Made by a program: the position numbers and the translations under genes. A stretch of 64,000 nt of DNA from Roseivivax sediminis. GTDB taxonomy: Bacteria > Pseudomonadota > Alphaproteobacteria > Rhodobacterales > Rhodobacteraceae. Position 1 is the stretch's first letter. Each line of letters opens with the position of its first letter. This document shows positions 1-20,364 of the stretch, piece after piece. The notes under the pieces are model-generated. The model had not been told where the DNA came from and did no database searches. It saw only the letters and a program-made list of their open reading frames with translations. The DNA lies in the NCBI RefSeq assembly GCF_900112685.1, contig NZ_FOMS01000004.1, positions 201,025 to 265,024 of the forward strand, read 5' to 3'.

Positions 1-459
1 ATCGCCTTCCGCCTGGCCGTGGCCATCGTGCAGATCGGCATTCTGCTGGGCGTGGGCAGCTTCATCGTCGACCTGACGCTTCTGCAATGGGTCCAGACCG
101 CCGGCCTCGCGCTCATGGGCGTGGTGATGCTGATCGCCGTTGGCTACGCGCTCTCGGGCCTCGCCAGCAGCACCGAATCCGGCATGGCCCTGATCATGAT
201 CGCGAACTTCACGCTCATGTTCGGCGGCAACATCTTCTGGGATCCCGAGGGCTCCACCGTGCTGATGGCGATCGCCCATGTGCTGCCGGTCAGCTACCTC
301 GCCGACGCCTTCCGGCAGGTCATCACGCATACCGACGGGCTGTGGCCGCTCTGGGTCGATCTCGTCGCCATCGTCGGCTGGACCGCTGCGATCCTCATGC
401 TCGCGACCCGCACGTTCTCGTTCGACATGCGCAGCGGAGACACCGCCCAACGCGCCTGA
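1..459 (+). CDS. ABC-2 type exporter permease, C-terminal part (cut by window start)
   Basis: The open frame runs from the first base, so the 5' part of the gene lies outside the window. The visible 152 residues are hydrophobic with about four membrane segments. They include a stretch with LPVSYLADAFRQVI near residue 100, the typical end of an ABC-2 (multidrug or antibiotic export) permease. It ends 58 nt before the SpaB_C-type gene on the same strand, so it probably belongs to the RiPP operon and exports the product or gives self-protection. Its ATPase would be upstream. A GTG at 19 is only an internal codon. The family call is from the hydrophobic pattern and context; the substrate is inferred. 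Confidence 0.7.
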   Translation: MAFRLAVAIVQIGILLGVGSFIVDLTLLQWVQTAGLALMGVVMLIAVGYALSGLASSTESGMALIMIANFTLMFGGNIFWDPEGSTVLMAIAHVLPVSYLADAFRQVITHTDGLWPLWVDLVAIVGWTAAILMLATRTFSFDMRSGDTAQRA

Positions 460-517
460 CATGCCGCGCCGTGCCAGGTGCGCGGCGCACGACCCCGACG
501 ACCCGAGGAGATGGCCC

Positions 518-1447
518 ATGACCGACGCCCCCGTGACCACCGACCCCAACTGGATCTTCCTCAAGATCTATCTCGGCGAAGCGGTCGACCGCATGGACTG
601 GATGATCGCCGAGGTCGCCCGGCTCACCGCCCGCCGCGACGATCTGCGGAAATGGTTCTTCCTGCGCTATATCGACGAGGACGGCATCCATGTCCGCCTG
701 CGCGTGCTGCCCGCCGACGAGGCAAGCGCCGACAAGATCCGGGCGGACCTGATCGACTCCACCGCCGACCGCCTCAGCCGCATCCACGCCCAGCCGCCCG
801 GCGATTACGCGCCGATGGTGTCGCTGCCCGGTTTCGAGGAGCAGATCGAGCAGGTCACCGCCGCCCACAACGACGTGCGCGTGGTCGAGGCCGCCTACGA
901 GCCCGAGTACGACAAGTTCGGCGGCGCCGCCGGCATGCCCATCGCCGAGACGCTGTTCTTCCGCAGCTCCGAGATCGCCGCACGGCTGATCGAGCTCGAC
1001 ACCGACGGCGCGCTGTCGCGCAAGAGCCTGATCCCGCGCCTCATGCACGAGACCTTCGAGGCGTTCCGCCCCGGCACCGACCCCGCCACCTTCTGGCGCG
1101 AATATTCCTATTACTGGCTCGGGGCGCGGACACCCGCGGCCGAGGATTGGCGCGACCGTTTCGCCGAGAAGGCCGCCGACCTCGCCGCCGACGGGATCTC
1201 GCCGCTGGCGCCGCACGGCACCGCGCAGGGCAAGTTCGATGCGCTGGTCTCGGACTGGCGCACGGCGCTGGACGCCGCCGCCGCGGATTACGCCGCGCTC
1301 GGCGGACAGGCCGGGATCAACGCCGAGGTGCTCGCCTTCACCTTCGCGCACCTGATGAACAACCGCCTCGGCATCGCCAGCCTCGAAGAGGCATACATGG
1401 CCGCGCTGGTCGAGCAAGCGGCCGAGCCCGGGAAGGAAGCGGCATGA
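518..1447 (+). CDS. Thiopeptide-type SpaB_C domain protein (LanB elimination partner)
   Basis: This 309-aa protein has the hallmarks of the stand-alone SpaB_C domain: an early W-I-F-L-K-I-Y segment, then KWFFLRYIDEDGIHVRLRV (residues about 45-63), the usual WFFIRY.D...HLRLR signature. In split class I dehydratases this domain eliminates glutamate from glutamylated Ser/Thr to give dehydroalanine or dehydrobutyrine. The glutamylating half is encoded at 6815-9364. Some relatives in thiopeptide clusters are instead [4+2] pyridine synthases. With only one such domain here, elimination is the simpler reading. The ATG at 518 is chosen because GAGGAG lies 7 nt upstream. The end overlaps the next gene by ATGA, indicating translational coupling. 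Confidence 0.88.
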   Translation: MTDAPVTTDPNWIFLKIYLGEAVDRMDWMIAEVARLTARRDDLRKWFFLRYIDEDGIHVRLRVLPADEASADKIRADLIDSTADRLSRIHAQPPGDYAPMVSLPGFEEQIEQVTAAHNDVRVVEAAYEPEYDKFGGAAGMPIAETLFFRSSEIAARLIELDTDGALSRKSLIPRLMHETFEAFRPGTDPATFWREYSYYWLGARTPAAEDWRDRFAEKAADLAADGISPLAPHGTAQGKFDALVSDWRTALDAAAADYAALGGQAGINAEVLAFTFAHLMNNRLGIASLEEAYMAALVEQAAEPGKEAA

Positions 1448-2790
1448 ACCCGGTTCTCGACCTCGACATGGATCATCTGCGGGCGCGCTACCCCTTCCAG
1501 CGCCTGCTGATGCCGCAGGGCGGGCTTCTGTCGGGTGCCAGCAAGATGGCGCCCGACCGCGGATCGCCCGACCTGCACGTCGCCGTCACCGACATCGGCA
1601 ACATGACCAAGGTCTTCCCGCATGTCATCAAGCCCGACGGCAACGACGTCGTGGACGAGCCGATGGGCGGCGCCGGCGCCGATCTCGACGAGGAGATGGC
1701 CTGGCTGCGCGCGGTCATGGAAGGCGCGGAACGCTACGCCAACATGGCCTATGAGAGCGAGGACGATTTCGTCGTCGCCAGCGGCAACGAGGTGGGTGAG
1801 CTGGGCATCGACCTCGACACCATCGCCCGCTGCTCGGACGCCGAATACGCCGACCCGGCCTGCCCGTTCAATCCGCCCGACAAGTCCCTGCCGATCCGCT
1901 GGACGCGTGGCTGGTCGCTCACCCACGAACGCGAGCGTTGGGTGCCGACGGTGATGACGCATCTCTACGCGCGCCCCTCGCGGAACGAACGGTTCTGGCA
2001 GGAGATCTCGACCGGGGTCGCGGCGCATGTCGACCTGTCCTCGGCGATCGTCTCGGCGCTCTGCGAGGTCATCGAACGCGACGCGCTGGCGATCCTGTGG
2101 CTGGCGCAACTGCCGCTGCCGCGGATCGAGGTGCCCGTGCCTCGTCCGCCGGCCCTGGCGGACAATCACCGGATGCTGGACCAGAGCCTCGTGCGGCAGC
2201 ATTTCTTCGACGCCACCAGCGACCTCGAAGTGCCGACCGTCTATTCGCTGCAACTGGTCGAGAACCACCCGAAGCTGGCGCAATACGTCAACTGCGCCAC
2301 CGGCTTCGATCCGGCAACGCTGGTGGCCAAGACGATCCGCGAGGCCGCGCCGGCCCGCCCCGTCCTGCAACAGCAGGCCAACATGCCCGAGAACTTCGAC
2401 GATTACCGGGCCCTGTCGGACGGCGCGGGGATGCTCGGCCGCCCCGAATGGCGGCAGGCGTTCGACTTCCTCACCCGGTCGCCCAACAGCATCGCGCTCG
2501 GCGAGATGACCGCGCCCGGGGCGGAGCGGCCGGCCGATCAGGTCCGCTACATCCTCGACCGCCTCTCGGCGCAGGGCTTCGAGGCGGTGATCTGCGATCT
2601 GACCACCGACGAGCTGCGCGACATGGGCATCTGGGTCGTGCGCGCCGTGATCCCCGGCCTCATGCCGATGAGCGTCGTCCAGAAGGGCCGCTTCCTCGGC
2701 ACTCCGCGGCTTTACGACTACCCGCGCCGCGCCGGGTTCGGCGCTCTGGACGAAGCCGACATCAACCCCCTGCCACAGCCGTTTGCATGA
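1444..2790 (+). CDS. YcaO cyclodehydratase (azoline-forming type)
   Basis: This 448-aa YcaO-domain protein belongs to the family that uses ATP to activate backbone amides of a precursor peptide. Two ATP/Mg-binding signatures are visible, MEGAERY (92-98) and CEVIERD (207-213). The protein ends in NPLPQPFA, a PxPxP tail. That tail is typical of YcaOs that make thiazoline or oxazoline from Cys, Ser or Thr, and it is absent from the second YcaO in this cluster. It overlaps its neighbours by 4 nt on both sides. Its natural partners are the following leader-binding protein and the SagB-like dehydrogenase, which would oxidise azolines to azoles. The enzyme class is strongly supported; which residues are cyclised cannot be told without the precursor. 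Confidence 0.92.
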   Translation: MNPVLDLDMDHLRARYPFQRLLMPQGGLLSGASKMAPDRGSPDLHVAVTDIGNMTKVFPHVIKPDGNDVVDEPMGGAGADLDEEMAWLRAVMEGAERYANMAYESEDDFVVASGNEVGELGIDLDTIARCSDAEYADPACPFNPPDKSLPIRWTRGWSLTHERERWVPTVMTHLYARPSRNERFWQEISTGVAAHVDLSSAIVSALCEVIERDALAILWLAQLPLPRIEVPVPRPPALADNHRMLDQSLVRQHFFDATSDLEVPTVYSLQLVENHPKLAQYVNCATGFDPATLVAKTIREAAPARPVLQQQANMPENFDDYRALSDGAGMLGRPEWRQAFDFLTRSPNSIALGEMTAPGAERPADQVRYILDRLSAQGFEAVICDLTTDELRDMGIWVVRAVIPGLMPMSVVQKGRFLGTPRLYDYPRRAGFGALDEADINPLPQPFA

Positions 2791-3425
2791 TGAAGACACT
2801 GTATCTCACTCTCGGACCTTTCGGTGCCGCGGTCGCGGATCGCGCCGCCTGCCCCGAAGACATCGTCCGGCCGTTTCCGCACGACGCGGCCGACATCGCC
2901 GCCGCGCTCGACACGCTCTTCGCGGAGGCCGACTTCGTGGCCGTCGCCGCGTGGCGGCCCGACGCGGGCGGCTTCATGGCCGTCGAAGAGGCCGCGCGCC
3001 GCACCGGAACGCCGTGGAGCCTTGCGGTCCTGACCGGCACGCACCTGTCGGTCGGCCCGCTCACGCATCCGGGCCGTCCCGGCTGCTACGGCTGCCACGT
3101 CAAGCGCGCCGGCACGCATCATCGCGCGCCCGGCCGCCAGTCGGTGCTCGAGCAGTTCTACCGCAAGCACCCGGAGGCGGGGCCCGAGGGCTTCACCCGC
3201 CCGATGGTCTCGCTCGCCGCCAACGCGCTGAAGGGCGATGCGGCGGCGGGCCTGCACCAGGCCGGACGCCTGCGCATCGTCGACGTCCTGACCGGACAGG
3301 TCACCCTCACCAAGGTCCTGCCCGTCCATGGCTGCCCGAGCTGCTTTGCCGACCGGGCGCAGGCGCAGCCCGGCGCGCGCTTCGTCCGCGACCTCGCCCC
3401 GGCGCTTTCGGAGATCCTGAGATGA
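2787..3425 (+). CDS. TOMM leader-peptide-binding / Ocin-ThiF-like partner protein with zinc knuckles
   Basis: This 212-aa protein resembles the E1/ThiF-derived partner ('C' or F protein) of azoline synthetases, which presents the leader peptide to YcaO. Visible support is the pair of CxxC motifs, C100-Y-G-C103 following HPGRPG and C183-P-S-C186 following VLPVHG. These are spaced like the structural zinc site of this family. It is far shorter than a full E1-like protein, so the adenylation core appears reduced. It may be completed by the N-terminal part of the next protein. ATG codons occur at 2787 and 2790; the first overlaps the ycaO stop by ATGA. Naming rests on the motifs and gene order. 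Confidence 0.75.
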   Translation: MMKTLYLTLGPFGAAVADRAACPEDIVRPFPHDAADIAAALDTLFAEADFVAVAAWRPDAGGFMAVEEAARRTGTPWSLAVLTGTHLSVGPLTHPGRPGCYGCHVKRAGTHHRAPGRQSVLEQFYRKHPEAGPEGFTRPMVSLAANALKGDAAAGLHQAGRLRIVDVLTGQVTLTKVLPVHGCPSCFADRAQAQPGARFVRDLAPALSEILR

Positions 3426-5749
3426 ACCAGATGAACAGCATCAGCGCCGACGTGATCGGCGGCAGCTTCCTGAACGATGCCGAACTCGCGCTGCCCGAAC
3501 GCCCGCGCGTGCCGCCCGAGATCCTGATGATCCCCTATGGCGCGCACGGCCTTCTGTTCGAGGGCGGCGACGGCAACCAGATCATCTCGGGACGCGGCGC
3601 GCGCAGCTTCATCCCGCGCCTCGTCGCCGTCCTCGACGGCACGCGCACCCTGCCCGAGATCCTCGCCGCGTTTCCGCGCGTCGACGATGCGAAGGTCTTC
3701 GGCGCGCTCGCGTTGCTCTACAGCCGCGGGCTGCTGGAGGACGGCCCCGGCGCGGCGGTGCCCGAGGCGCTGGAAGAGACGGCGCGATTCCTCGGCCGCT
3801 ACATCGACGCCACGCGCGTCAACGGCAATCGCGGCGCGGCGCTGGACCGGCTGGCCGGGACGCGCGTGGCGCTGGCCGGACGCGGCGCCGCGTGGCTCGC
3901 CGAGGCGCTGGACGGCGCGGGTCTGGCCGCGCTCGACACGCCCGCGACGCCGGCGGACCTCGACTCGGGCACCGGCCTGCTGCTTACGCTCTTCTCCGGC
4001 CCCGAACCGGACGCGCAGGACTGGCTCGATGCGGCATGGAATGCCGGCATCCGCATCCTGCACGCGCATGTCGGCGCCGAGACGGCCGAGATCGGCCCGC
4101 TCTTCGTGCCGGGCGCCTCTGCCAGCCCGACCTGCTTTCGCCGCCTGCGCCCCGAGGCCCCCACCGGCACGCCGGCCGATCCGGGGTTCTGGGCCGGCAC
4201 CTTGGCGATGTCGGCGCAGTCCCTCGTCAGCCGGATCGGCCGCGTGGAGCTTTTCGATCTGTGCCACGTTCACCAGGGCACGGCCTACGAGAGGTTGCAG
4301 CTCGCCCGGCTTCCCGGGTCCGAGGCGGCCGGGCTCGGCCATGTCGCGCCGCCCGAGACCGATCCGCACAACGTGGTCTGGCGGCTCCACAACGCCGCGA
4401 ACGCGATGCCCCCGCGCGAGCTTCTGGTGCCGCGCGACCACCAGATGCACTACTCGGCCTCCAACATCTCGACCGCGCAGGAGAAGCCGGACCCGCATCA
4501 TGGCGCGACGCCGATCGCACTGCCCGAGGACCGCCCGCTGACGGACGTCGCGCGCGATGCTCGGCTCGACCTGCCGACCCTCGGCACGATGCTGCGCCAT
4601 GCCGCCGGCTACGACGCGGACGGCACCCGCATCGCCCCGAGCGCGGGCGGCCTCGGCTCCGCCAACCTCTATCTCGTGGCGCGGGACGTGCCGGGGCTGC
4701 CGCGCGGCGCGATGTGCCATTACTACGCTCCGGCGCACCGGCTCGACTACCTCGGGACCCTCACAGACGAGGAGCTTTCCGGCGCGCTTGGCGCCAGCGC
4801 CGAGGATCTGCCCGCCGCGCTTCTCGTCGGTGCCTCGGACACCGACAAGACGCAGAAGAAATACAACAACTTCGCCTTCCGCTTCGCCCAGCTCGATTGC
4901 GGCGTGGCGCGGGCCTACCTGACCGATCTGGCCGGCCATTACGGCCTGCCGGTGCGGGATTATCCCGGCCTGCGCGACCGCAGCATGGCGCTTCTGCTGA
5001 AGCTCGGCATCCGCGCCGACCAGGAGATCGTCGCCTTCGCCGCCGGACTGGGCGAGATGGCGCACACCGCGCGCCGCCCCCTGCCCGCGCTGCGCCCGTT
5101 CCAGGCCGTCACCCAGCTGATCGAGCTGTCGGCGCAGGACGGGCCGGTTTCGGCCCCGGCGGCGATCGTGCCTCCGGCGCCGGTCTGGAGCGCGGCAGAC
5201 GATCCGGGGCATGTGCTGCGCACGCGGCGCTCGCGCCGGGTCTTCGATGGCGTCCCGCTCGGCTCGGCCGAGATCGGCCTGCTGTTCCGCGAGGCGCAGG
5301 TCATCGGCGACATCCTCGAGGCGACCGGCGCACGCCGTCTCAGACTGGGTTTCTGGGGCATCGCCGCCCGCACGGACGGCACCGCCGACATCCTGCGCCC
5401 CGGCGCGGACGCGCCGCAAGTTTTCCGGCCCGGCGTGGAGTTCGAACGGCTCGCGGATCTGACGATCCAGCCCAAGCTGATGGAAGCGCCCTTCGTGCTG
5501 CTCGTGACCGGAGATCTGCACGACGCCGTCGCACGGGCCGGCGCGCGTGGCTACCGCGACCTCGTCGGCCGTGCCGGTGCGATCGCGGGCCGGACGCTCA
5601 ATGCCGCGTGGGCCGCGGGCATCTCGGGCTGCCCTTGGGGCGGGATGTGCGAATCCGGCTGGGGCCCGCTTCTGGACATTGACCGCTACACCGACTGCCC
5701 GCTCTTCGGGATCAGCTTCGGCCGCACCGGGGAGGAGACGCATGGCTGA
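3422..5749 (+). CDS. SagB-like azoline dehydrogenase with N-terminal peptide-recognition region
   Basis: The 775-aa product is much longer than a typical SagB/McbC FMN dehydrogenase (about 250-500 aa). The first ~350 residues look like an Ocin-ThiF/RRE-type leader-binding region plus an E1-like remnant. They are followed by HYSASN and RIAPSAGGLGSANLYLVARD, the SagB substrate-domain signature. The C-terminal ~190 residues begin RTRRSRRVFDGVPL and end with a second nitroreductase-fold half containing ISGCPWGGMCESGWGP. In the family these enzymes use FMN to oxidise azolines to aromatic thiazole or oxazole. It overlaps the previous gene by ATGA and the next by 8 nt. The enzyme class is clear; the domain borders are read by eye. 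Confidence 0.87.
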   Translation: MNQMNSISADVIGGSFLNDAELALPERPRVPPEILMIPYGAHGLLFEGGDGNQIISGRGARSFIPRLVAVLDGTRTLPEILAAFPRVDDAKVFGALALLYSRGLLEDGPGAAVPEALEETARFLGRYIDATRVNGNRGAALDRLAGTRVALAGRGAAWLAEALDGAGLAALDTPATPADLDSGTGLLLTLFSGPEPDAQDWLDAAWNAGIRILHAHVGAETAEIGPLFVPGASASPTCFRRLRPEAPTGTPADPGFWAGTLAMSAQSLVSRIGRVELFDLCHVHQGTAYERLQLARLPGSEAAGLGHVAPPETDPHNVVWRLHNAANAMPPRELLVPRDHQMHYSASNISTAQEKPDPHHGATPIALPEDRPLTDVARDARLDLPTLGTMLRHAAGYDADGTRIAPSAGGLGSANLYLVARDVPGLPRGAMCHYYAPAHRLDYLGTLTDEELSGALGASAEDLPAALLVGASDTDKTQKKYNNFAFRFAQLDCGVARAYLTDLAGHYGLPVRDYPGLRDRSMALLLKLGIRADQEIVAFAAGLGEMAHTARRPLPALRPFQAVTQLIELSAQDGPVSAPAAIVPPAPVWSAADDPGHVLRTRRSRRVFDGVPLGSAEIGLLFREAQVIGDILEATGARRLRLGFWGIAARTDGTADILRPGADAPQVFRPGVEFERLADLTIQPKLMEAPFVLLVTGDLHDAVARAGARGYRDLVGRAGAIAGRTLNAAWAAGISGCPWGGMCESGWGPLLDIDRYTDCPLFGISFGRTGEETHG

Positions 5750-6791
5750 CATCGCATTCACCGACATGGCAGAGCCTGCCGCCGCGCCCTGCCTTGCCTT
5801 CAAGCCCGGCGTGGCCAAGGTCAAGCGCAAGAACACGACGGTGTTGGTGTCGCCCGAGGACGGCCGCTCGCTGCGCATCTCGAAACCGGCCGAGGCGCTG
5901 ATCCCGCTGCTGGCCGAGGGCGCGGACAAGCCGCGATTGCGCGAGGCGCTGGCTGACCGCTACCCGACGACGCCGCGCATCACGCGGCAGCTCGACCGCT
6001 TCCTGACACAATTGCGCGACGCGGGAATGCTCGAGACCGGCATCGCCGCGCCGACGGCCGATCGGTTCGACGAGAAACCGGTCGCGAAGATCGCGCTCGT
6101 CGACGTGGGCCCGGCGGCCGAAGCCGTCGCCGGGGCGATCCGCAGCGTGCCGCCGCGGCTCGCCTGGCTTGCGCTCGCCGCGCTCGTCGGTGGCGCGGTC
6201 CTTTGTATCGGGCTTCTCGCGTTCGACGCGCGCATGCCGCACCCGTCCGATTTCGTGTTCGACTTCCATGTCGCCGGCGTCCTGACCTACGCGCTGATCG
6301 GCGTTCCGCTGCACGAGTTTGCGCACGCGGTCGCCTGCCGCCTGATCGGGGCGGAGGTCGGCAAGGCCGGCATCGTCGCCCACGGCTTCACGCCGGGACC
6401 CTATGTCGAGACCCGCGGCGTCTACCGCATCCGCAACCGCTGGCACCGCTTCGCCGTCCCGGCGGCCGGACCAGCGACCGATCTCGTCGCCGCCGGGGCC
6501 GGAGCCGCGATGGTTCTGCTGGCGGCGAACGCCGATGGCGGGCTCGCCCATGCGGGCCAGACGCTGATGCTGACGGCGCTGCTCTTTCTCGCCTTCAACA
6601 CCAACCCGTTCATGCCCAGCGACGGCAGCCACATGGTCGAAGCCGTGCTCGACGATGAAATGGCGCGCAAATCGGCGCTGCGGCTGCGCGGCTCACCGCT
6701 CTCCGACCGGCGCGACGTCGCCTTCTACCGCGCCTACGCCTCGAGCCACCTGCAGGGCATCGCCTGCCTGCTTTGGTTCTGGTGGTTCTGA
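5742..6791 (+). CDS. PqqD-like / M50 zinc metalloprotease fusion membrane protein
   Basis: In this 349-aa protein residues about 15-100 form a small winged-helix PqqD-like domain (LRISKPAEALIPLLAEG followed by RQLDRFLTQLRDAGML). The rest is a membrane protein with the zinc-protease motif HEFAH (191-195) inside a helix. The matching NTNPFMPSDG segment (286-295) carries the third ligand Asp of M50/site-2 proteases. This order suggests that the PqqD part captures the leader and the membrane protease cuts it. It could thus be the leader peptidase of the RiPP pathway, or else a non-proteolytic maturation or immunity factor. The ATG at 5742 overlaps the dehydrogenase stop and is preceded by GGAGGAG. 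Confidence 0.85.
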   Translation: MADIAFTDMAEPAAAPCLAFKPGVAKVKRKNTTVLVSPEDGRSLRISKPAEALIPLLAEGADKPRLREALADRYPTTPRITRQLDRFLTQLRDAGMLETGIAAPTADRFDEKPVAKIALVDVGPAAEAVAGAIRSVPPRLAWLALAALVGGAVLCIGLLAFDARMPHPSDFVFDFHVAGVLTYALIGVPLHEFAHAVACRLIGAEVGKAGIVAHGFTPGPYVETRGVYRIRNRWHRFAVPAAGPATDLVAAGAGAAMVLLAANADGGLAHAGQTLMLTALLFLAFNTNPFMPSDGSHMVEAVLDDEMARKSALRLRGSPLSDRRDVAFYRAYASSHLQGIACLLWFWWF

Positions 6792-6814
6792 CGCGTGCAC
6801 CCCGGGAGGATGCC

Positions 6815-9364: not shown

Positions 9365-9378
9365 GAAAGGAGACGGCC

Positions 9379-10101
9379 ATGACACTTCACGACCCCGAGA
9401 TCGCCCTCAAGGCCACCGAACAGACGGACGCGGCGCCTCTGGTCGTCATCGACCGTGTCTCGCGCGCCTACCGCAAGGGCAAGGTCGCGGTCCCCGTGCT
9501 TGAGCGGCACGCGATGACCATCGCGGCCGGCGAAATGCTCGCGCTCGTGGGCGCGTCCGGCTGCGGCAAGACGACCCTTCTGAACCTGATCGGCGGCGCG
9601 GACCGCCCCGACGCGGGCGAGATCACGGTGGGCGAGACGCGCATCACCTCGCTCTCCGATGGCGCGCTGACGGATTGGCGCGGCCGGAACGTCGGTTTCA
9701 TCTTCCAGTTCTACAACCTCCTGCCCGCCCTCTCGGCGCGCGCCAATGTCGAACTGCCGCTGCTGATCCACGATCTGCGGGCCGCCGAACGCCGGGCGCG
9801 CGTCGACAACGCCCTGAACCTCGTCGGCCTCGAGGACCGCGCCGACCACCGCCCCGAGGAGATGTCGGGCGGCCAGCAGCAGCGCGTCGCCATCGCGCGC
9901 GCCCTCGTGACCGATGCCGACCTGCTGCTCTGCGACGAGCCGACCGGCGATCTCGACCAGGATTCCGCGACCCGGATCATGGAGCTTCTGAGCCTTCTGA
10001 ACGAGGAATTCGGCAAGACCATCGTCGTCGTCACGCACGACCCCAACGTCGCGGCCTATGCCGCCCGCACGGTGCGTCTGACGCGCCCCGAAGCCGTCTG
10101 A
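9379..10101 (+). CDS. ABC transporter ATP-binding protein (MacB/LolD type)
   Basis: The 240-aa ATPase shows Walker A GASGCGKTT (58-66), a Q-loop in FIFQFYNLLP, signature SGGQQQR and Walker B LLLCDEPTGDLD. The FQFYNLLP and DEPTGDLD sequences are typical of the MacB/LolD/FtsE branch, which works with FtsX-like permeases. Two such permeases follow directly, and an HlyD-type adaptor is encoded at 15000, so the set probably forms a tripartite-style exporter for the modified peptide, or an immunity pump. The start is set by AAAGGAGA about 7 nt upstream of ATG 9379. The N-terminal ~20 residues extend beyond the usual ATPase core. Confidence 0.93.
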   Translation: MTLHDPEIALKATEQTDAAPLVVIDRVSRAYRKGKVAVPVLERHAMTIAAGEMLALVGASGCGKTTLLNLIGGADRPDAGEITVGETRITSLSDGALTDWRGRNVGFIFQFYNLLPALSARANVELPLLIHDLRAAERRARVDNALNLVGLEDRADHRPEEMSGGQQQRVAIARALVTDADLLLCDEPTGDLDQDSATRIMELLSLLNEEFGKTIVVVTHDPNVAAYAARTVRLTRPEAV

Positions 10102-10116
10102 GGGAGGCCCGAACCG

Positions 10117-11280
10117 ATGCGCCTTGTCTCGCTCATCCTCAGGAACGCCGCCCGCAGCCGCGCCCGGGTCGCGTTCACGCTCGGCTCGGTGGTCGTGGCC
10201 TTCCTGCTGCTCGGGCTCATGCTGCCGGTGCTGCGCGTGTTCGACAGCCGCGTCGACTTTGCCGATGCGAACCGTCTCATGGTGCTCAACAAGGCGTCGA
10301 TGATGCGGCCGCTGCCGATCAGCTACGGCGACCGGATCGCCGAGCTCGACAACGTGTCGGACGTCGGGCACTTCACCTATTTCGGCGCGTCCTACCGCGA
10401 TCCTGGCAACGAGATCCCGGCCATCGTCACCAATCCCGCGAAGTTCCCCGACCTGGTCGACGAGGTCGCCTTCCGCAACGAGGGCACGCTGTCGGACTGG
10501 CAATCCGACCCGTCGAGCATCGCCGTCGGGCGCGAGCTGGCCGACGAATACGGCTGGCAGGAGGGCGACCTCGTGCCGCTCTATTCCTCGATCTACACGC
10601 GGTCGGACGGCAACCCGGTCTGGACCTTCAGGGTCGGCACGATCTTCGACGGCGCGACCGAGGATTCGGTCACCAATTCGGTGGTGATCCCCTACGGCTT
10701 CTTCAACACCGAACGCAGCCGCGGCAAGGACACGGTGGGCTGGTATGCCGTCCGCATCGACGACGCCAATGCCGCCGAGACGACGGGCGAGGCCATCGAC
10801 GCGGTCTTCGAGAATTCTCCGAACGAGACCGCGACCACCACCGAACGCGCCTTCGCCAAGAGCTTCCTCAACCAGATCGGCGACTTCAAGACGATGATCG
10901 GCGCGGCGCTGATCCTCGTCTTCTGGACGCTCGTCCTGATCACCGCGAACGCGCAGATGCAGTCGATCCGCGAACGCTTCGGCGATTTCGCAGTCATGCG
11001 CATCCTCGGCTTTCGCAAGCGCCGCATCGCCGGGATGATCCTGTCGGAGAGCCTGTTGATGATGTTCGCCGGCGGCGTGATCGGCATGGCCGTCGCCGCC
11101 GTCGCGGTCGCCATCGTCGCGGCGAACGGCGAGGCGCTTCTCGCGCTTCTGAAGCTCGACTGGCGCGACTGGGCCATCGGCGCGGGCCTCATGGCCGGCA
11201 CCGGGCTGGTCGTGGCCGCCGTGCCCGCGACGCTCGCGGCGCGCCAGAAGATCACCGACGGACTGGCGGAGGCCCTGTGA
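10117..11280 (+). CDS. FtsX/MacB-type ABC permease, first copy
   Basis: This 387-aa protein has the MacB/FtsX layout: one N-terminal membrane helix (FTLGSVVVAFLLLGLMLPVL), a ~220-residue periplasmic domain, then three C-terminal helices. The cytoplasmic link RERFGDFAVMRILGFRKRRI before the penultimate helices is characteristic of FtsX-domain permeases. It follows the ATPase by 15 nt with a GGGAGG ribosome site. Its TGA overlaps the ATG of the second permease by one base. Together the two probably form a heterodimeric permease. The substrate is inferred to be the RiPP or its precursor. Confidence 0.9.
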   Translation: MRLVSLILRNAARSRARVAFTLGSVVVAFLLLGLMLPVLRVFDSRVDFADANRLMVLNKASMMRPLPISYGDRIAELDNVSDVGHFTYFGASYRDPGNEIPAIVTNPAKFPDLVDEVAFRNEGTLSDWQSDPSSIAVGRELADEYGWQEGDLVPLYSSIYTRSDGNPVWTFRVGTIFDGATEDSVTNSVVIPYGFFNTERSRGKDTVGWYAVRIDDANAAETTGEAIDAVFENSPNETATTTERAFAKSFLNQIGDFKTMIGAALILVFWTLVLITANAQMQSIRERFGDFAVMRILGFRKRRIAGMILSESLLMMFAGGVIGMAVAAVAVAIVAANGEALLALLKLDWRDWAIGAGLMAGTGLVVAAVPATLAARQKITDGLAEAL

Positions 11281-12449
11281 TGAAGACGTTCAAACGTATC
11301 CGCACCGCGCTTGTCATCTCGCTCAGGGGGCTGGGGCGGCGCTGGTGGGCCTCGCTCAACTCGGTCTTCGGCACCGCGGTCGTGGTCGCCGTCATGGTGG
11401 CGATCCTCGCCATCGGCGCGGGCTACAGCGAGGCCATGAAGATGGCCGAGGTGGACGACGCCTACATGATCCTCAAGGGCGGCGTGCGCTCGGAGATGGA
11501 AAGCACGCTCGAAGGGCCGGACGTGCGGCTGATCGAATCCGAACTCGGCGGCGACGCCGCGGCCGAGGTCTATGTCGTCACCTCCATCGAGGACAGCGAG
11601 GGCGAGCCGGTCAACGTCGCACTGCGCGGCATCGGCGCGGGGTCGGTCGACATACGTCCCGGCTGGACGCTGAGCGCCGGTCGAATGCCCCGAGAAGGCC
11701 GGCGCGAGATCGTCGTCGGCAAGCGCGCGCAGCAGCATTTCGGCGGCCTCGCCCTCGGCGACGCGATCCGGCTCGGCTCGGCCAGCTGGACGGTGGTCGG
11801 CATGTTCGAGACCGGCGGCTCGCTGACGGAATCCGAGATCTGGGCCGGCGCCACCCCCGTCCAGGACGCCTTCGACCGCCCCGACGCCTACCAGGTCGTC
11901 ATCGCGACCCCGCAGGACGGCGAAAGCCCGCAGGACATGCAGGCCCGCATCAATCGCGACGACCGGCTGAGCGTGTCGGTGGTGAGCATGGCCGACTACT
12001 ACGGCGAACAGGCCCGCGCGATGGAGCGATTCGTGTCGATCCTCGGATACGGGATCGGAAGCCTGATGGCGCTCGGCGCGATCTTCGCGGCGCTCAATAC
12101 GGGCCTTGGCCACATAAAGACCCGCGCCAAGGAGATCGCGACATTGTCGATCCTCGGCTGGACCCGCAGTTCGTTGACCGTCGCCCTCGCGATCGAGACG
12201 GTGCTGATGACGGTCCTCGGCGGCCTCATCGGCGTGGCGCTGGTCCACCTGATCTTCGACGACCGGCTGATCTCCACCCTCTTCTTCGCCGAGGACTTCA
12301 CCCAGATCGTCTTCGACTTCGAGGTGACGGCCGCGATCCTGTGGCAGGCGGTCGCGATGGCGGTGGTGATCGGCCTCTTGGGCTCGATCGGCCCGGCGAT
12401 GCAGCTGCGCCGCCTGCCGGTCGCGCAGATCCTGCTGCAGCGGCGCTGA
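11280..12449 (+). CDS. FtsX/MacB-type ABC permease, second copy
   Basis: A 389-aa paralogue of the preceding permease with the same arrangement. It has a first helix around AVVVAVMVAILAIGAGYSEA, a periplasmic domain (about residues 50-250), and three terminal helices. The link segment KTRAKEIATLSILGWTRSSL matches the FtsX signature, and the C-terminus LRRLPVAQILLQRR is typical of the family. It starts at the ATG inside the previous gene's stop (TGATG), which indicates coupled, probably stoichiometric translation. Heterodimer formation and peptide export are inferences from operon structure. Confidence 0.9.
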   Translation: MKTFKRIRTALVISLRGLGRRWWASLNSVFGTAVVVAVMVAILAIGAGYSEAMKMAEVDDAYMILKGGVRSEMESTLEGPDVRLIESELGGDAAAEVYVVTSIEDSEGEPVNVALRGIGAGSVDIRPGWTLSAGRMPREGRREIVVGKRAQQHFGGLALGDAIRLGSASWTVVGMFETGGSLTESEIWAGATPVQDAFDRPDAYQVVIATPQDGESPQDMQARINRDDRLSVSVVSMADYYGEQARAMERFVSILGYGIGSLMALGAIFAALNTGLGHIKTRAKEIATLSILGWTRSSLTVALAIETVLMTVLGGLIGVALVHLIFDDRLISTLFFAEDFTQIVFDFEVTAAILWQAVAMAVVIGLLGSIGPAMQLRRLPVAQILLQRR

Positions 12450-12461
12450 GGGAGGCACGAC

Positions 12462-13676
12462 ATGATCACGCTGCTCGGCCAACCCGCCAGCGCCGCCAAG
12501 GCGCATTTCGACGGCACCCACCGGACCCGCGCGCCCGAGGAGACCTTTGCCGACTACGCCCGGCACATGCCGGCAATGGGCATCACGCGGATCGGCAATG
12601 TCACCGGGCTCGACCGGATCGGCTTTCCGGTCTGCGTCGCGGTCCGCCCGAATGCCCGCGCCCTGTCGACCAGCCAGGGCAAGGGGCGCAGCCTGGCCGC
12701 CGCCCGGGTCTCGGCGCTCATGGAAGCGATCGAGACATGGCACGGCGAGCGCCCCGAGGGCGAGATCCGCATCGCGAGCCATGCCGAGCTGTCGCGCGAG
12801 GGCCCGGTGCCGCCGCTGCGCGATTTCCCGGTCCGGGCCGATGCGCACCTCTCCGAGCGCCACCCCATCCCGTGGATCCGCGGCTGGGACCTGATGGAAG
12901 AAGCGCCGGCATGGCTGCCGCTCGAGACGGTGTCGACCAATTTCGTGGAAGGCGGCAACCGGCCTGCCTTCCTGCGCTCCACCAACGGGCTCGCTTCGGG
13001 CAACCACGTACTCGAAGCGGTGGTGCACGCCCTCTGCGAGGTGATCGAACGCGATGCGCTGACGATGTCGGGGCTGCGCGGAAACCCGGTTCCGGTCGAT
13101 CCGCAGAGCGTGCCGGACCCGGAACTGCGCCAGCTTCTGGACGAGCTGGCCGAAAAGGCGGTCGCGGTCTTCCTGACGGACCTGACCTGCGACACCGGCG
13201 TGCCCACCTTCTCGTGCGAGCTCATCGACGATCCCGAGAGCCCGGCCTGGCGGGCGCTGCCGCAGGTCGACGGCCACGGCACGCACCTCGACTACCGCGT
13301 GGCGCTCAGCCGGGCGGTGACCGAGGCGATCCAGGCCCGCGCGACGGTGATCTCGGGCAGCCGCGACGACCTGTTCCCGCAGGATTATCGCGACGCGGTC
13401 AGCATCGAGGACCAGCTGGCCCGCGTCGAGAACCGCAGCGCCGCCCCTCTGGCGACCGTCCGGACCGACGCGACCGCGAGTTTCGAGGGCGACCTCGCGC
13501 TGCTGCTGGATCGCCTGCGCGCGGTCGGCGTGCGGCACGTGCTGGCCTGCGACCTTCGCCGGTCCGAAATCGGCATCCCGGTGGTCAAGGTGGTCGTTCC
13601 GGGGCTCGAGCCGGTGCGCACCCCGTTCTATCAGCCGGGCCCGCGCGCCCGCGCGATCCTGAAGGAGGCCGCATGA
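12462..13676 (+). CDS. YcaO protein of the TfuA-associated (thioamide-forming) type
   Basis: This second YcaO has 404 aa. ATP-binding signatures are SQGKGRSLAAARVSALMEA (71-89) and CEVIERD (192-198). The protein ends in ARAILKEAA and lacks the PxPxP tail of the first YcaO. It is immediately followed, with ATGA overlap, by tfuA. YcaO-TfuA pairs are known to install thioamides in RiPPs such as thioviridamide-like peptides and some thiopeptides, and in archaeal methyl-CoM reductase. So this copy is more likely a thioamide synthase than a second cyclodehydratase. It follows the permease genes by 12 nt with a GGGAGG site. The reaction is inferred from the pairing and the missing tail. Confidence 0.9.
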   Translation: MITLLGQPASAAKAHFDGTHRTRAPEETFADYARHMPAMGITRIGNVTGLDRIGFPVCVAVRPNARALSTSQGKGRSLAAARVSALMEAIETWHGERPEGEIRIASHAELSREGPVPPLRDFPVRADAHLSERHPIPWIRGWDLMEEAPAWLPLETVSTNFVEGGNRPAFLRSTNGLASGNHVLEAVVHALCEVIERDALTMSGLRGNPVPVDPQSVPDPELRQLLDELAEKAVAVFLTDLTCDTGVPTFSCELIDDPESPAWRALPQVDGHGTHLDYRVALSRAVTEAIQARATVISGSRDDLFPQDYRDAVSIEDQLARVENRSAAPLATVRTDATASFEGDLALLLDRLRAVGVRHVLACDLRRSEIGIPVVKVVVPGLEPVRTPFYQPGPRARAILKEAA

Positions 13677-15028
13677 CCGGACCGATCCTCATCTTCCTCG
13701 GCCCGACCCTGGCCGTCGACGCCGCGCGACGGCATCTCGACGCCACATACCTGCCGCCCTGCCGCATGGGCGACGTGTTCCGGGCGCTCGAGACCCACCG
13801 CCCGCGGGCCATCGGCATCGTCGACGGCTATTTCGAGGCAACGCCGGCGGTATGGCACAAGGAGATCCTCTACGCGCTGTCGCAGGGGGTGGCGGTCTTC
13901 GGCGCCTCCAGCATGGGCGCCCTGCGCGCGGCCGAACTGCACCCGTTCGGGATGGAAGGCGTCGGCGCGATCTTCGAGGCCTTCGCGCACGGCGATCTGA
14001 CGGACGACGACGAGGTGGCGGTGGCCCATGCCGAGGCGGCGGCGGGCTACGACCTCGCCTCCGATCCGATGGTCAATCTGCGCCGCGGGCTGGACCTCGC
14101 GAAGGGCGCGTCGGTGATCGCCGAAGACGACCGGACGCGGATCGTCGCCGCATTGAAGGCGCTGCCGTATCCGCAGCGCAGCTGGCAGGCCATCTGGGCC
14201 GGCGCGGGCGGCCTCGCGCAGGCCCGGCTGCGGGCGTTGCGCGACTTCGTCGAAACGACCGATTGCGACCTGAAGGCGCAGGACGCGCGCGCGCTTCTGG
14301 ACCGGATCGCGGAATGGGACGGGGCCGGCCGCGCGGCGCCCAAGGCAGATCATTTCGACTTCGAGCCGACCCTCTTCTGGGAGGAACTGATGCGGCTCAA
14401 CCGCCCCGAGGAGGCGACCGGCGGTGACGGCGGGCAGCGATTGCTCGACCATGTCCGCGTCTCGCCGGGCCGGGAGGCCGCGCTGTCGGGCGCGCTTTTG
14501 CACCATCTGGTCACGGATGCCGTGCGGCGGCTCGGCGTCACGGTTCCGGACGACCGCGTGGTTCTTGCCCGCTTCCGCCGCAAGCGGGGGCTGACCTCGC
14601 CTGCGGCCCTCGGGACCTGGATGGCCGACAACCGGATCGACCAGGCCGGGTGCCTCGACCTTGCGCGATACGAGGCACAGGTGCGGGCGCTTCTCCAGCG
14701 CACCATGCCGAGCCTCGGACCGGATGTCGCGGCCGCCCTGCGCGTGGCCGGAACCTACCCCGCGGCAGAGGCCGGCGCGCGGCGCACCGAGACGCATCTT
14801 GCGCGCGCGGGCATCGACGATCCGGGGCCGGACCACGTGGACGCGCTGGAGCCGGTGCTGGCCGACTACCAGCGCCGGACCGGACCTGTTCACACCGACC
14901 TCGACACCCACGCGGCCGAGCTTGGCTTCGGGTCGACGCGCCACTTCCTCCGGGCGCTGATCGGCGCCCATCTCGCAGCGGAATCCGAGGAGGCCGACGA
15001 TGACACACCTGCCAGACAGCACGCGTGA
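13673..15028 (+). CDS. tfuA: TfuA-like protein, thioamidation partner of YcaO
   Basis: The 451-aa product contains the TfuA core in its first ~200 residues. This comprises an N-terminal FLGPTLAVDAARR strand, VDGYFEATPAVWHKEILYAL, GVAVFGASSMGALRAAEL and GMEGVGAIFEAFAHGDLTDDDEVAV, all hallmark TfuA segments. The extra ~230 residues extend past the core and have no family I can name. Known TfuA proteins act with YcaO, probably in sulfur delivery for thioamide formation. The start overlaps the ycaO stop by ATGA, and its 3' end overlaps the adaptor gene by 29 nt, so the three are translationally linked. Confidence 0.9.
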   Translation: MTGPILIFLGPTLAVDAARRHLDATYLPPCRMGDVFRALETHRPRAIGIVDGYFEATPAVWHKEILYALSQGVAVFGASSMGALRAAELHPFGMEGVGAIFEAFAHGDLTDDDEVAVAHAEAAAGYDLASDPMVNLRRGLDLAKGASVIAEDDRTRIVAALKALPYPQRSWQAIWAGAGGLAQARLRALRDFVETTDCDLKAQDARALLDRIAEWDGAGRAAPKADHFDFEPTLFWEELMRLNRPEEATGGDGGQRLLDHVRVSPGREAALSGALLHHLVTDAVRRLGVTVPDDRVVLARFRRKRGLTSPAALGTWMADNRIDQAGCLDLARYEAQVRALLQRTMPSLGPDVAAALRVAGTYPAAEAGARRTETHLARAGIDDPGPDHVDALEPVLADYQRRTGPVHTDLDTHAAELGFGSTRHFLRALIGAHLAAESEEADDDTPARQHA

Positions 15029-16196
15029 GGCGCCGCGCAGGACCGAGCCCACCGGCGGGGCCTTCCGCAGCTATTCGGAAGCCGAGCGCGCCCGCATGCG
15101 CGGTATATTGCAGGACATGGGCACGCGCACGTCCTCGGCCGGGGCCGCGCCCGGCGGGCCGTCCCCCGACGGTCCGGCCCGGCCCCGGCGCGGTCTGCGC
15201 CGCATCGGATGGGCCGCGCTGGCGGGTGCGGCGGTCGCGGGGGTCTGGGCGTTCGCGCCGTCCCCCGACAGGATCGTCGCGGCCGCCGAAACCCGGCTGG
15301 CCGCCCTGATCGGCCCCGCCGAGCCGCCGGCAGACCCGGCCCCCGCGCAGCCGGCCGACCCGGCGGCCGAGCCGGGCGCCGCCGCACCGCCGCCCCCGGC
15401 GGCGGCCCCGACCCCGACGCTCGAGGCCAGCGGCAAGGTTGTCGCCCGCCGCGAGGCGACACTGTCGAGCGATCTGACCGGCCGGCTGGCCGAACTGCTC
15501 GTCTCCGAGGGTGACAGGATCGAGGCCGGCGACCCGGTCGCCCGTCTCGACGCCGAAGCGGCCGAGGCGCAGCTTGCCATCGCCAGCGCCAACGTCGCGG
15601 CGGCCGAGCAGGAGCGCGCCGTGGTCGCCGCCGAACTCGCGGCCATGGAGGACGACCTCGCCCGGACCCGGACCCTCACCGAACGTGGCGTGTCGTCGAA
15701 ACAGGCCCTGAGCGAGTTGCAGGGCCAGCACGCCGTGCTCGAGGCGCGGGCCGCCTCCAACGACAGCCGGATCGACGTCCAGCGGCGGCAGCTCGAAGCG
15801 ATGCGGCAAGACCTCGACAACACGCTGATCCGCGCGCCCTTCGACGGCGTGATCACCGAGATCACCGCCAATGTCGGCGAGATCGTCTCGCCCGTGTCCT
15901 CGGGCGGCTATACCCAGTCAGGCATCGCCACCGTGGTCGATCCCGGCTCCATCGTCGGCGAGGTCGACGTGAACGAGCAGTTCCTGTCGAAGGTGCGCCC
16001 GGGCCAGCCGGTCGAGATGACGGTGCCGGCCTGGCCCGACCGCACCTTTGCCGGCTCTGTCGACCTGATCACGCCCGTCGTCGACGACAGCACCGCCGCG
16101 GTCGAGGTCACGGTCGCCTTCGACGACGTGCCCGCCAGCGTCTATCCGGGAATGCGCCTCGATGTCGCGTTCCTCTCCGGTCCCGAAGAAAGCTGA
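15000..16196 (+). CDS. HlyD/RND-type periplasmic adaptor of an exporter
   Basis: This 398-aa membrane-fusion protein has a basic N-terminus and one membrane anchor (about residues 65-80, WAALAGAAVAGVWAFAP). A proline/alanine-rich linker follows, then a biotinyl-lipoyl half (ASGKVVARREATLSSDLTGR), a long alanine-rich helical hairpin, and a second lipoyl half (LIRAPFDGVITEITANVGE). A beta-barrel region completes it. It fits with the ATPase and two FtsX permeases to form a MacAB-like pump; no outer-membrane channel gene is present here. The start at 15000 lies within tfuA. The ~60-residue cytoplasmic tail before the anchor is unusually long. Confidence 0.9.
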   Translation: MTHLPDSTREAPRRTEPTGGAFRSYSEAERARMRGILQDMGTRTSSAGAAPGGPSPDGPARPRRGLRRIGWAALAGAAVAGVWAFAPSPDRIVAAAETRLAALIGPAEPPADPAPAQPADPAAEPGAAAPPPPAAAPTPTLEASGKVVARREATLSSDLTGRLAELLVSEGDRIEAGDPVARLDAEAAEAQLAIASANVAAAEQERAVVAAELAAMEDDLARTRTLTERGVSSKQALSELQGQHAVLEARAASNDSRIDVQRRQLEAMRQDLDNTLIRAPFDGVITEITANVGEIVSPVSSGGYTQSGIATVVDPGSIVGEVDVNEQFLSKVRPGQPVEMTVPAWPDRTFAGSVDLITPVVDDSTAAVEVTVAFDDVPASVYPGMRLDVAFLSGPEES

Positions 16197-16241
16197 TCCG
16201 CGCCTTCCGCGGTTCGGACTATCCCCAGAAGGAGACCCGAC

Positions 16242-17141
16242 ATGATCTTCACCCGACGAAGCCTGTGCTGCGCGTTGACTGCCGCCCTCGCACTGTCCCA
16301 TGTCGCACGGGCGGCCCCGCAGCTGGACGGCATGGACACCTTCGAGACCGATCGCATCACCATCGACAGCACGTCCGGCCCGGGACCGGACGTGATCCTT
16401 CTGCCCGGCCTCGCCACCCCGGGCGAGGTCTGGGACGGGGTCGTCGCGGATCTCGACGGACGCGCGCGGACCCATGTCGTGAACGTCAAGGGGTTCGGCC
16501 ACGGCGACGGAGCCGCCAACGCGGCGGGCGACCTGATGGCGGGCGTCCTGTCGGACATCGCCGTCTTCACACGCGACCGCGGGCTCGACCGGCCGGCGCT
16601 CGTGGGGCACAGCCTCGGCGGCACGCTTGCGCTGCAGGCGGGGATCGAGACGCCGGATCTTTACGGCAGGCTCATGGTGGTCGACGCGCTGCCTTTCGTG
16701 GCGCTGCTCTTCGATCCCGGCGCGACGAAGGACAGCGTCGAGGAACAGGCCGCCTCCATGCGCGACCGGATGGCCGAGGCGCCGGCCGGCGCGAACGCGG
16801 AGGCGACCGCCGAGCGCTATGCAATCGGCGAGGACGCACAGAAGCGCGTCGCGGAGTGGATCGCGGCCTCGGATCCGCAGACCGTCGCGCAGGCCTTCTA
16901 CGAGGACATGCAGACCGACCTGCGGCCCGCCCTCTCGGACATCGTCGCGCCGGTCCACTTAATTGTGCCGGTGCCGCCCGAGGCAGAAGGGCGAGACTTC
17001 CCCGCACAGTATGAGTCGCTTTACGGCGACGTGTCCAACTTCACCCTGCATCCGGTCGAGGAGGCTCGCCACTTCGTCATGCTTGATCAGCCAGACAGGA
17101 TGACGGCGCTGATCGAGGACTTCCTTAAGCTCTCTGACTAG
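16242..17141 (+). CDS. Exported alpha/beta hydrolase
   Basis: The 299-aa protein begins with a signal sequence containing TRRSLCCALTAALAL and a likely cut after ARA (residue about 24). The twin Arg resembles a weak Tat signal. The fold markers are VILLPGLATPGEVWDGV and the nucleophile elbow GHSLGG (Ser124). A late His lies in EEARHFVMLDQPDRM. It follows the adaptor by 45 nt with AAGGAG upstream of ATG. As the last gene of the RiPP operon it may hydrolyse a peptide or ester in the periplasm, or detoxify the product. No sequence feature fixes its substrate. Confidence 0.85.
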   Translation: MIFTRRSLCCALTAALALSHVARAAPQLDGMDTFETDRITIDSTSGPGPDVILLPGLATPGEVWDGVVADLDGRARTHVVNVKGFGHGDGAANAAGDLMAGVLSDIAVFTRDRGLDRPALVGHSLGGTLALQAGIETPDLYGRLMVVDALPFVALLFDPGATKDSVEEQAASMRDRMAEAPAGANAEATAERYAIGEDAQKRVAEWIAASDPQTVAQAFYEDMQTDLRPALSDIVAPVHLIVPVPPEAEGRDFPAQYESLYGDVSNFTLHPVEEARHFVMLDQPDRMTALIEDFLKLSD

Positions 17142-17368: not shown

Positions 17369-18238
17369 CTACGATAGGTGCCCGTAGGTCTCTTGTCGGC
17401 TATCGCTTCCGCTGCGCCTGTCGTCTTCCGGCTTTGAACGGCAATGAGCCTGGAGCGAACGATGGCGGGCCGGTGGAGGCGCCACAGTGAAGTCGATCCG
17501 GAGGGTGCCGTGCCGGTCGTACCGCTGGGTGGCCTCCACCGCGAAGACATCGCGGATCAGCCCGGGTGTCAGCGTACCAGCCGGCAGGCCCTGAGTGACC
17601 AGCCGCCCCCGGTCCAGAACCGCGATGCAGTCGCAGAAGGCCGCGGCATGATCGAGATCGTGCAGGGCGATCACGCAGGTTGTCCGGAGGCTCCGCAGCA
17701 GGTCGAGCAGTTCGAGCTGATGGCGGATGTCCAGGTGGTTCGTGGGCTCGTCGAGCAGGATCTCGCGCGGCTCCTGGGCGAGGGCGCGCGCCACCTGGAC
17801 GCGCTGGCGCTCTCCGCCGGAGAGTGTGGACCAGGACTGGCCCGCACGGCCCGTCATGCCGGTCGTCTCGAGCGCGGCGGCCACCGCCGCCTCGTCGGCC
17901 GGTGTCCAGCCGCCCCAGGCGCCGCGATGGGGCGTGCGCCCCAGGCTGACCACGTCCCGCACGCGCAGTTGCATCTCGGTCGCGGAATGCTGCTCCACGA
18001 AGGCCAGCCGCCGGGCGAGCTCGGCGCGGCGAACCCTGCTGACCGGGCGCCCGTCCAGCAGCACGTCGCCCGCATCCGGGCGGCGCAGCCCGCCGAGCAG
18101 GCGCAGCAGGCTGGACTTGCCGGAGCCGTTCGGACCGACGAGCCCCAGCACACCTCCCGCCGGCGCCGTGACGCTCACGCCGTTGAGGATGCGCCGTCCT
18201 CCGGCGCTCCAGCTCACATCCCGGGCCGCGAGCGTCAT
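17369..18238 (-). CDS. btuD: Cobalamin/iron-type ABC importer ATPase (BtuD/FecE-like)
   Basis: The 289-aa ATPase has Walker A GPNGSGKSS, signature LSGGERQR and Walker B ILLDEPTNHLD, as in the FecCDE/BtuCD importer family. The last ~35 residues beyond FTVAPPPA are basic and low in structure. The normal stop may have been lost at the junction with the RiPP region. It is the third gene of an operon led by a cobalamin riboswitch, which makes corrinoid import more likely than iron-siderophore import. Its ATG overlaps the permease stop by ATGA. Family assignment is firm; substrate follows from the riboswitch. Confidence 0.88.
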   Translation of the reverse strand: MTLAARDVSWSAGGRRILNGVSVTAPAGGVLGLVGPNGSGKSSLLRLLGGLRRPDAGDVLLDGRPVSRVRRAELARRLAFVEQHSATEMQLRVRDVVSLGRTPHRGAWGGWTPADEAAVAAALETTGMTGRAGQSWSTLSGGERQRVQVARALAQEPREILLDEPTNHLDIRHQLELLDLLRSLRTTCVIALHDLDHAAAFCDCIAVLDRGRLVTQGLPAGTLTPGLIRDVFAVEATQRYDRHGTLRIDFTVAPPPARHRSLQAHCRSKPEDDRRSGSDSRQETYGHLS

Positions 18239-20294: not shown

Positions 20295-20364
20295 GTCTGG
20301 TCCTTCTCCGGACGCCCCGCCCGGATCGGTTGCGGTGACAGGCCGTGCCTCATGCCTCGGCCCG

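Follow-up and report, generated by a model that had tools for sequence, protein, structure and literature searches.

What would a bacterium make from an operon that carries, side by side, enzymes for azole rings, dehydroamino acids and thioamides? The question is raised by a locus of Roseivivax sediminis, a marine alphaproteobacterium with a 4.62 Mb genome, of which a stretch of 64,000 nucleotides (assembly GCF_900112685.1, contig NZ_FOMS01000004.1, positions 201,025 to 265,024, forward strand; hereafter the window) was analysed. A first-pass annotation, made from the letters alone, had placed at 1..17141 a hybrid gene cluster for a ribosomally synthesized and post-translationally modified peptide (RiPP) that joins all three chemistries. 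The follow-up indicates that the locus is probably a complete operon for the biosynthesis, processing and export of a linear ribosomal peptide with thiazoles (possibly oxazoles), dehydroalanines (Dha) and at least one backbone thioamide.

The cluster consists of 18 adjacent + strand genes, joined by overlaps or by gaps of at most 69 nt with the exception of 251 nt 3' of the precursor gene; its genes, domains, motifs, synteny and core conservation are read directly from the genomes. The + strand genes within 1..17141 do form one unit, but the cluster is not contained there: its start lies some 3.6 kb before window base 1, in a region that holds the precursor, sulfur-carrier (ThiS) and MoeB genes and was out of view of the first-pass annotation, and the window edge splits the operon. 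Positions in the fetched stretch L003 equal the window position plus 11000. The 18 genes, preceded by a GntR-family gene, are in order:

L003:6374-7072, + strand: GntR-family gene upstream of the precursor (GntR 62 bits)
L003:7391-7585, + strand: precursor peptide, 64 aa (23.8 bits to NF033482)
L003:7837-8115, + strand: ThiS/MoaD protein, 92 aa (Pfam ThiS 44 bits)
L003:8119-9288, + strand: MoeB-rhodanese protein, 389 aa (Pfam ThiF 268 bits, Rhodanese 44.9 bits)
L003:9358-10386, + strand: ABC ATPase (ABC_tran 122 bits)
1..459, + strand: 3' part of the ABC-2 permease gene, which starts at L003:10383 (window -617) (ABC2_membrane_3 92 bits)
518..1447, + strand: Lant_dehydr_C (SpaB_C) protein, 309 aa, putative half of a split LanB that would eliminate glutamate (PF14028 116 bits; TIGR03891 98.5 bits)
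1444..2790, + strand: YcaO1, putative azoline-forming cyclodehydratase (PF02624 224 bits; TIGR03604 SagD family 282 bits, cut-off 219)
2790..3425, + strand: leader-binding/E1-like partner of the TOMM type, 211 aa (TIGR03882 51.9 bits, cut-off 36.9; two CxxC)
3422..5749, + strand: two-domain protein of 775 aa, a SagB-type dehydrogenase plus a second nitroreductase-type domain, predicted to oxidise azolines (TIGR03605 63.1 bits, below the cut-off of 78.4; PF00881 38.5 bits)
5742..6791, + strand: PqqD-M50 site-2-type metalloprotease (HEFAH), predicted leader removal (PF02163 30.8 bits, PF05402 26.8 bits)
6815..9364, + strand: LanB N-domain homologue, GodF/TbtB-like, 849 aa, predicted Ser/Thr glutamylation (profile against PDB)
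9379..10101, + strand: MacB/LolD-type ABC ATPase (ABC_tran 123.7 bits; LolD and MacB models below cut-off)
10117..11280, + strand: FtsX/MacB-type permease 1 (FtsX 46.3 bits)
11280..12449, + strand: FtsX/MacB-type permease 2 (MacB_PCD 60.2 bits, FtsX 44.3 bits)
12462..13676, + strand: YcaO2, predicted thioamide-forming (PF02624 268.7 bits)
13673..15028, + strand: TfuA protein with C-terminal extension (PF07812 149.8 bits; NF033432 200 bits, below the cut-off of 235)
15000..16196, + strand: HlyD/MacA-type periplasmic adaptor (HlyD_D23 78.6 bits; TIGR01730 135.7 bits)
16242..17141, + strand: alpha/beta hydrolase, the last syntenic gene (Abhydrolase_6 58.7 bits; in 5/5 cluster copies)

Every family that the first-pass annotation had named (YcaO, zinc-knuckle partner, SagB-like oxidase, SpaB_C, LanB-type protein, PqqD-M50, MacB/FtsX/HlyD, second YcaO and TfuA) is thus present on the + strand. 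Its split LanB needs a qualification: the LanB N-like protein is real, but the window copy has no Pfam match of its own at E<=1 and was found through a profile of six homologues.

Could these genes nevertheless belong to two unrelated operons? All 18 are present in the same order in Roseivivax halodurans (JCM 10272; 92-100% identity in tblastn best segments), in Paracoccus onubensis strain A (61-92%, likewise) and on plasmid pAMI4 of P. aminophilus JCM 7686 (NC_022049.1), whose precursor is 75% and whose other 17 proteins are 34-69% identical to those of the window (about 40-69% in the synteny comparison). P. onubensis strain B retains the order for the 17 genes from thiS on, and its contig starts just before thiS, inside the cluster. 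Since the order is common to three further genomes for 18 genes and to a fourth for 17, the cluster is not a chance association; two unrelated operons are ruled out, and the single operon for azole, dehydration and thioamidation enzymes proposed at first pass holds across both genera. The five copies also share the YcaO1 tail (INPLPQPFA, identical throughout), the two CxxC motifs of the TIGR03882 partner, the HExxH motif of the protease, the MAGG end of ThiS, and the CxxC motif and rhodanese Cys loop of MoeB. In the public annotation of pAMI4 the MoaD/ThiS, MoeB, thiopeptide-type bacteriocin, YcaO-like, TOMM leader-binding, nitroreductase, site-2 protease and TfuA-like proteins are named, and the LanB half and the precursor are hypothetical.

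On what peptide would these enzymes act? The precursor, MSIKASALDTHVFDLHADDDLDLFAEELPEQVQLVSDCASSASSASCCTCTGSFGSMGSVVSCG, has a leader containing LDLFAEELPEQ and a core taken as about C38-G64, the 37/38 border being our choice. It was found in all four copies whose contig spans its place, and against NF033482 (NCBI thiocillin family precursor, cut-off 25) the P. onubensis and P. aminophilus peptides score 25.5 and 21.7 bits. When the window is compared with P. aminophilus, the core differs at positions 39, 57 and 61 only, so that 24 of its 27 residues are identical, as against 12 changes in the 37 leader positions. All 16 core Ser, Thr and Cys residues are identical in this pair; in the other 17 proteins 291 of 746 such residues are identical, and not one of the 495 runs of 16 has been preserved in full. 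Only 139 of 6248 stretches of 27 residues from those proteins (2.2%) match the conservation of the core. In the comparison with P. onubensis, the closer relative, the core does not stand out: 892 of 6248 stretches (14%) are equally conserved. That 16 of 16 modifiable residues are fixed where the remaining proteins are 34-69% identical suggests selection on the product, so that a bioactive molecule is plausible.

Strong tandem hairpins are predicted between the precursor gene and thiS (L003:7586-7836; window -3414 to -3164) in Roseivivax and P. onubensis, with energies of -53 to -59 kcal/mol for 110 nt, calculated without a shuffle control; the P. aminophilus segment folds differently (-39). 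One stem, judged by eye, carries a matching change on both sides.

A further question is whether the cluster still works. A degenerate or silent cluster with no product today would fit its rarity, the LanB half being found in 1 of 394 sampled family genomes (the host's own), as well as a phage-integrase-like frame near a tRNA-Thr gene upstream. It appears very unlikely, given that the reading frames of all 18 genes are open, that the tested motifs are kept in 5/5 copies and that the core has been preserved during divergence of the other proteins. The family, phylum, class and genus counts are samples taken with a loose first look and do not form a census. By profile, one of 398 phylum genomes has the LanB half and one of 385 class genomes has YcaO1 (E<=1e-60), in both cases the host's own. 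The precursor is found in 2 of 9 Roseivivax-genus genomes; of 125 genomes from the Paracoccus genus group, 19 have YcaO1 at E<=1e-3, three of them with at least 69% identity. Among 72,556 plasmid records, two contain the SagB protein and three the LanB half.

Which architecture do the azole and dehydration enzymes follow, and would the product be closed into a ring? The two YcaO proteins are of different families, YcaO1 grouping with the SagD family and YcaO2 with the McrA thioamidation family. Compared with solved chains, the profile of six LanB-half homologues (three of which match PF04738) finds GodF (9jhq, E 4.1e-62) and TbtB (6ec7, E 2.1e-29). The control for the other half was plasmid pBac115, which we take to be that of a micrococcin P1 producer, and whose TclK-, TclL- and TclM-like proteins we labelled from gene order and model matches. 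The Lant_dehydr_C family profile matches the TclL-like protein at E 3.8e-26 and the TclM-like protein at E 0.43 (98.9% and 0.2%, respectively, by hhalign). By sequence, the lone Lant_dehydr_C protein therefore matches the elimination, and not the cycloaddition, protein of the pBac115 thiopeptide cluster.

The YcaO cyclodehydratase, dehydrogenase and split LanB are features shared with thiopeptides. The cluster could also be imagined to make a true thioamidated thiopeptide, a thiopeptin-like macrocycle for which the Lant_dehydr_C protein or an unrecognised enzyme also performs the [4+2] cycloaddition. A separate [4+2] pyridine synthase was not found, however. Model NF045556 matches none of the five cluster genomes at E<=1 and finds pBac115 at E 3e-18, with the caveat that 4 of 14 named control genomes also match at E<=1, none above the cut-off, so that weak matches mean little. 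A TclM-like query has no match at E<=1 within 26 kb around the cluster, and the remaining genes of the unit are assigned to other functions. Together with the TclL-like character of the Lant_dehydr_C family, these results make the macrocycle unlikely. The prediction of a linear product follows from that elimination-like protein and the null result for NF045556 in five genomes, and the working pBac115 control moves the linear reading slightly up and the thiopeptide slightly down. The occurrence of one PF14028 domain in each of four genomes was also considered as proof against a [4+2] enzyme, and was dropped as PF14028 misses the TclM-like control. What the cluster does contain, by homology, is the goadsporin-type arrangement of a GodF-like glutamylation protein and a separate elimination protein with no cycloaddition enzyme. 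Thioamitides (thioviridamide-like peptides), for their part, have an AviMeCys-forming cysteine decarboxylase as their hallmark; no flavoprotein decarboxylase has a Pfam match among the 18 gene products.

How would sulfur enter the backbone? YcaO2 scores 222 bits against TIGR03266 (McrA-glycine thioamidation YcaO), below the cut-off of 365, and 134 against the SagD family. The ycaO2 and tfuA genes overlap (12462-13676 and 13673-15028), and such an adjacent pair with a precursor in one cluster is the gene arrangement of TfuA-type RiPPs. Genome-wide there are three ThiS-family and four over-cut-off ThiF-family genes, cluster copies included; with two more ThiS and three more over-cut-off ThiF genes in the genome, the cluster copies are extras. 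According to PMC13063428, thioamide-forming YcaOs outside high-sulfide habitats tend to use a thiocarboxylated ThiS homologue and a TfuA hydrolase. By analogy, ThiS and MoeB in the same operon as TfuA and YcaO agree with a thiocarboxylate sulfur route, and YcaO2, TfuA, ThiS and MoeB are predicted to act together as a thioamidation module that brings its own source of sulfur. Of the 451 residues of the TfuA protein, the TfuA domain itself takes up 51-170 only. The C-terminal region of the protein can be aligned with TfuA proteins from other Alphaproteobacteria and matches TIGR04500 (a peptide-maturation family) weakly, at 26.6 bits.

This module might instead modify a target other than the core, e.g., a host protein, as YcaOs do McrA and uL16. 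The resemblance of YcaO2 to the McrA family and the existence of protein-directed YcaOs (PMC13063428) speak for such a role; in every one of the five cluster copies, however, the four module genes are interspersed at constant positions with the azole and LanB genes, and according to the same source (PMC13063428) the YcaOs suspected of modifying uL16 have no TfuA gene nearby. A target other than the core is consequently regarded as highly improbable. Relatives of YcaO2 were also considered as cluster members and rejected: of 22 loci, only 3 (L005-L007) have the neighbouring genes of the cluster within the stretch retrieved, a further 18 (L008-L025) have YcaO2 and TfuA without the rest of the set, and at the last (L026) TfuA was not matched and the contig ends.

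Each chemical step, the step order, the modification sites and the linearity are predictions from homology. The TIGR03882 partner would bind the 64-aa precursor, and YcaO1 would cyclise Cys, as well as some Ser/Thr, of the core; oxidation of the rings would fall to the SagB/nitroreductase protein. The GodF-like LanB half would glutamylate Ser from Glu-tRNA, and the Lant_dehydr_C protein would eliminate glutamate to give Dha. The core has four Ser residues directly before Ser or Cys (S40-S41, S43-S44, S46-C47 and S62-C63), and these, each directly before a putative azole, are the most likely Dha sites. In goadsporin, Dha arises at Ser immediately before an azole (PMC5303826), and likewise in carnazolamide (PMC10676384). 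The MoeB-rhodanese protein would load the ThiS-like carrier as a thiocarboxylate, from which TfuA would release sulfide for YcaO2 to install the thioamide. Finally, the PqqD-M50 protease may cut off the leader. Export of the product and protection of the producer may be the task of the ABC-2 and MacAB-type pumps; no self-resistance target gene was seen in the 18-gene unit. The predicted product would carry at most five thiazoles, at least one thioamide, and Dha in place of some of the dyad Ser residues; by analogy it may be antibacterial. The unmodified core, with the border taken as above, has a calculated mass of 2435.883 Da in Roseivivax, 2445.958 Da in P. onubensis and 2459.974 Da in P. 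aminophilus; five thiazoles would lower this by 100.13 Da (20.03 Da per azole) and each Dha by 18.01 Da, and each thioamide would raise it by 15.98 Da.

How does this compare with known systems? Goadsporin (god, Streptomyces) is alike in its YcaO, dehydrogenase and split LanB, GodF/GodG (PMC5303826), GodF being the best solved relative of the LanB half, and goadsporin and the coryneazolisins are LanB-bearing azole clusters without a [4+2] protein (PMC4603692). In contrast, a TfuA module is not described for goadsporin in the accessible text, and a GNAT acetyltransferase has no Pfam match among the 18 Roseivivax products. Thiopeptin, saalfelduracin and Sch 18640 combine azoles, dehydroamino acids and a TfuA/YcaO thioamide in one RiPP (PMC8120280). 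On the other hand, they are [4+2]-closed, and the known TfuA products are actinobacterial there (PMC8120280), whereas the Roseivivax host is alphaproteobacterial. Among the TfuA families of Malit et al. (2021; PMC8120280) are predicted linear azol(in)e-containing peptide (LAP)/thiopeptide clusters, some of which have a split lanthipeptide dehydratase (LanB); thiopeptide-like precursors are described there separately, for proteobacterial members, and MoeB and ThiS appear in two figure legends. Paracoccus and Roseivivax have no occurrence in its main text, and its supplementary tables may include this cluster family. The dehydrazoles (carnazolamide) share Dha before an azole, and one predicted Nakamurella cluster adds YcaO-TfuA, but their dehydratase is LanM-type (PMC10676384) and that of Roseivivax is a split tRNA-dependent LanB.

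The nearest azole/LanB module without the thioamidation cassette and MacAB-type pump was seen on a Bacillota plasmid, Anoxybacillus amylolyticus pDSM15939_1 (NZ_CP015439.1; L048:13037-24518). It has homologues of YcaO1, the partner, SagB and nitroreductase, PqqD-M50 and the LanB half, a single annotated Lant_dehydr_C gene, an ABC pair and two precursors with the leader AEE(L/M)PEQ (25.0 and 42 bits to NF033482; BLASTP to the Roseivivax precursor E 1e-7 and 7e-6 in a 15-protein set). Unlike the window cluster, it has no second YcaO, TfuA, ThiS/MoeB or MacAB-type pump annotated in a 31.6-kb stretch, its SagB and nitroreductase parts are two genes and not fused, and identity is 36% for YcaO1 and 22% for LanB; no description of its product was found in the literature. 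A Streptomyces sp. NBC_00316 plasmid (L051:7104-19981) carries a further cluster, which encodes two TOMM leader-binding proteins, a lantibiotic dehydratase, SagB, an ABC pair and a single thiopeptide-type protein.

The suggestion at first pass of an undescribed RiPP class does not survive these comparisons, because the three chemistries occur together in thiopeptins, and thiopeptide-like TfuA clusters were already mined in 2021 (PMC8120280). Each enzyme type is known; distinct here are the predicted linear design and the dedicated ThiS/MoeB supply. No described product for this enzyme set was found in the open-licence literature in searches around Roseivivax, Paracoccus and thiopeptide/YcaO/TfuA.

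The R. halodurans match to the window reaches about 100 bases beyond the last gene and its contig ends about 385 bases later, so that this border is weakly tested. Beyond the end of that match, a FecCD-type ABC importer (window 17369-20582, - strand; Pfam identifies the ATPase and permease, and the binding protein was recognised by eye) adjoins the cluster. R. halodurans has the upstream GntR gene as well (97%), and so does P. onubensis strain A (51%); in a 40-kb P. aminophilus stretch it has no match at E<=1e-3. A tRNA-Thr gene (L003:4258-4332) is followed by the phage-integrase-like frame (L003:4554-5375; together window -6742 to -5625), which ends about 1 kb before the GntR gene and matches PF00589 at 27.8 bits, barely above the cut-off of 27.1. 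The region is a possible old integration site; in a genomic-island search, further matches to the tRNA-Thr end were of 12 bases only.

Taken more broadly, the evidence leans modestly towards a family of linear goadsporin-like RiPPs of Gram-negative Rhodobacterales with azoles, Dha and a backbone thioamide, in which a self-contained thioamidation cassette (ThiS and MoeB-rhodanese next to the precursor, YcaO-TfuA distal) and a MacAB-type pump are joined to the azole/LanB module. If true, the complete operon with its precursor would be available in P. aminophilus JCM 7686, R. halodurans JCM 10272 and P. onubensis. The family would offer a test case for three modification systems that compete over the same residues of one Ser/Thr/Cys-rich core and would also supply, in ThiS-MoeB-TfuA-YcaO, a native system for studying how sulfur reaches thioamides.

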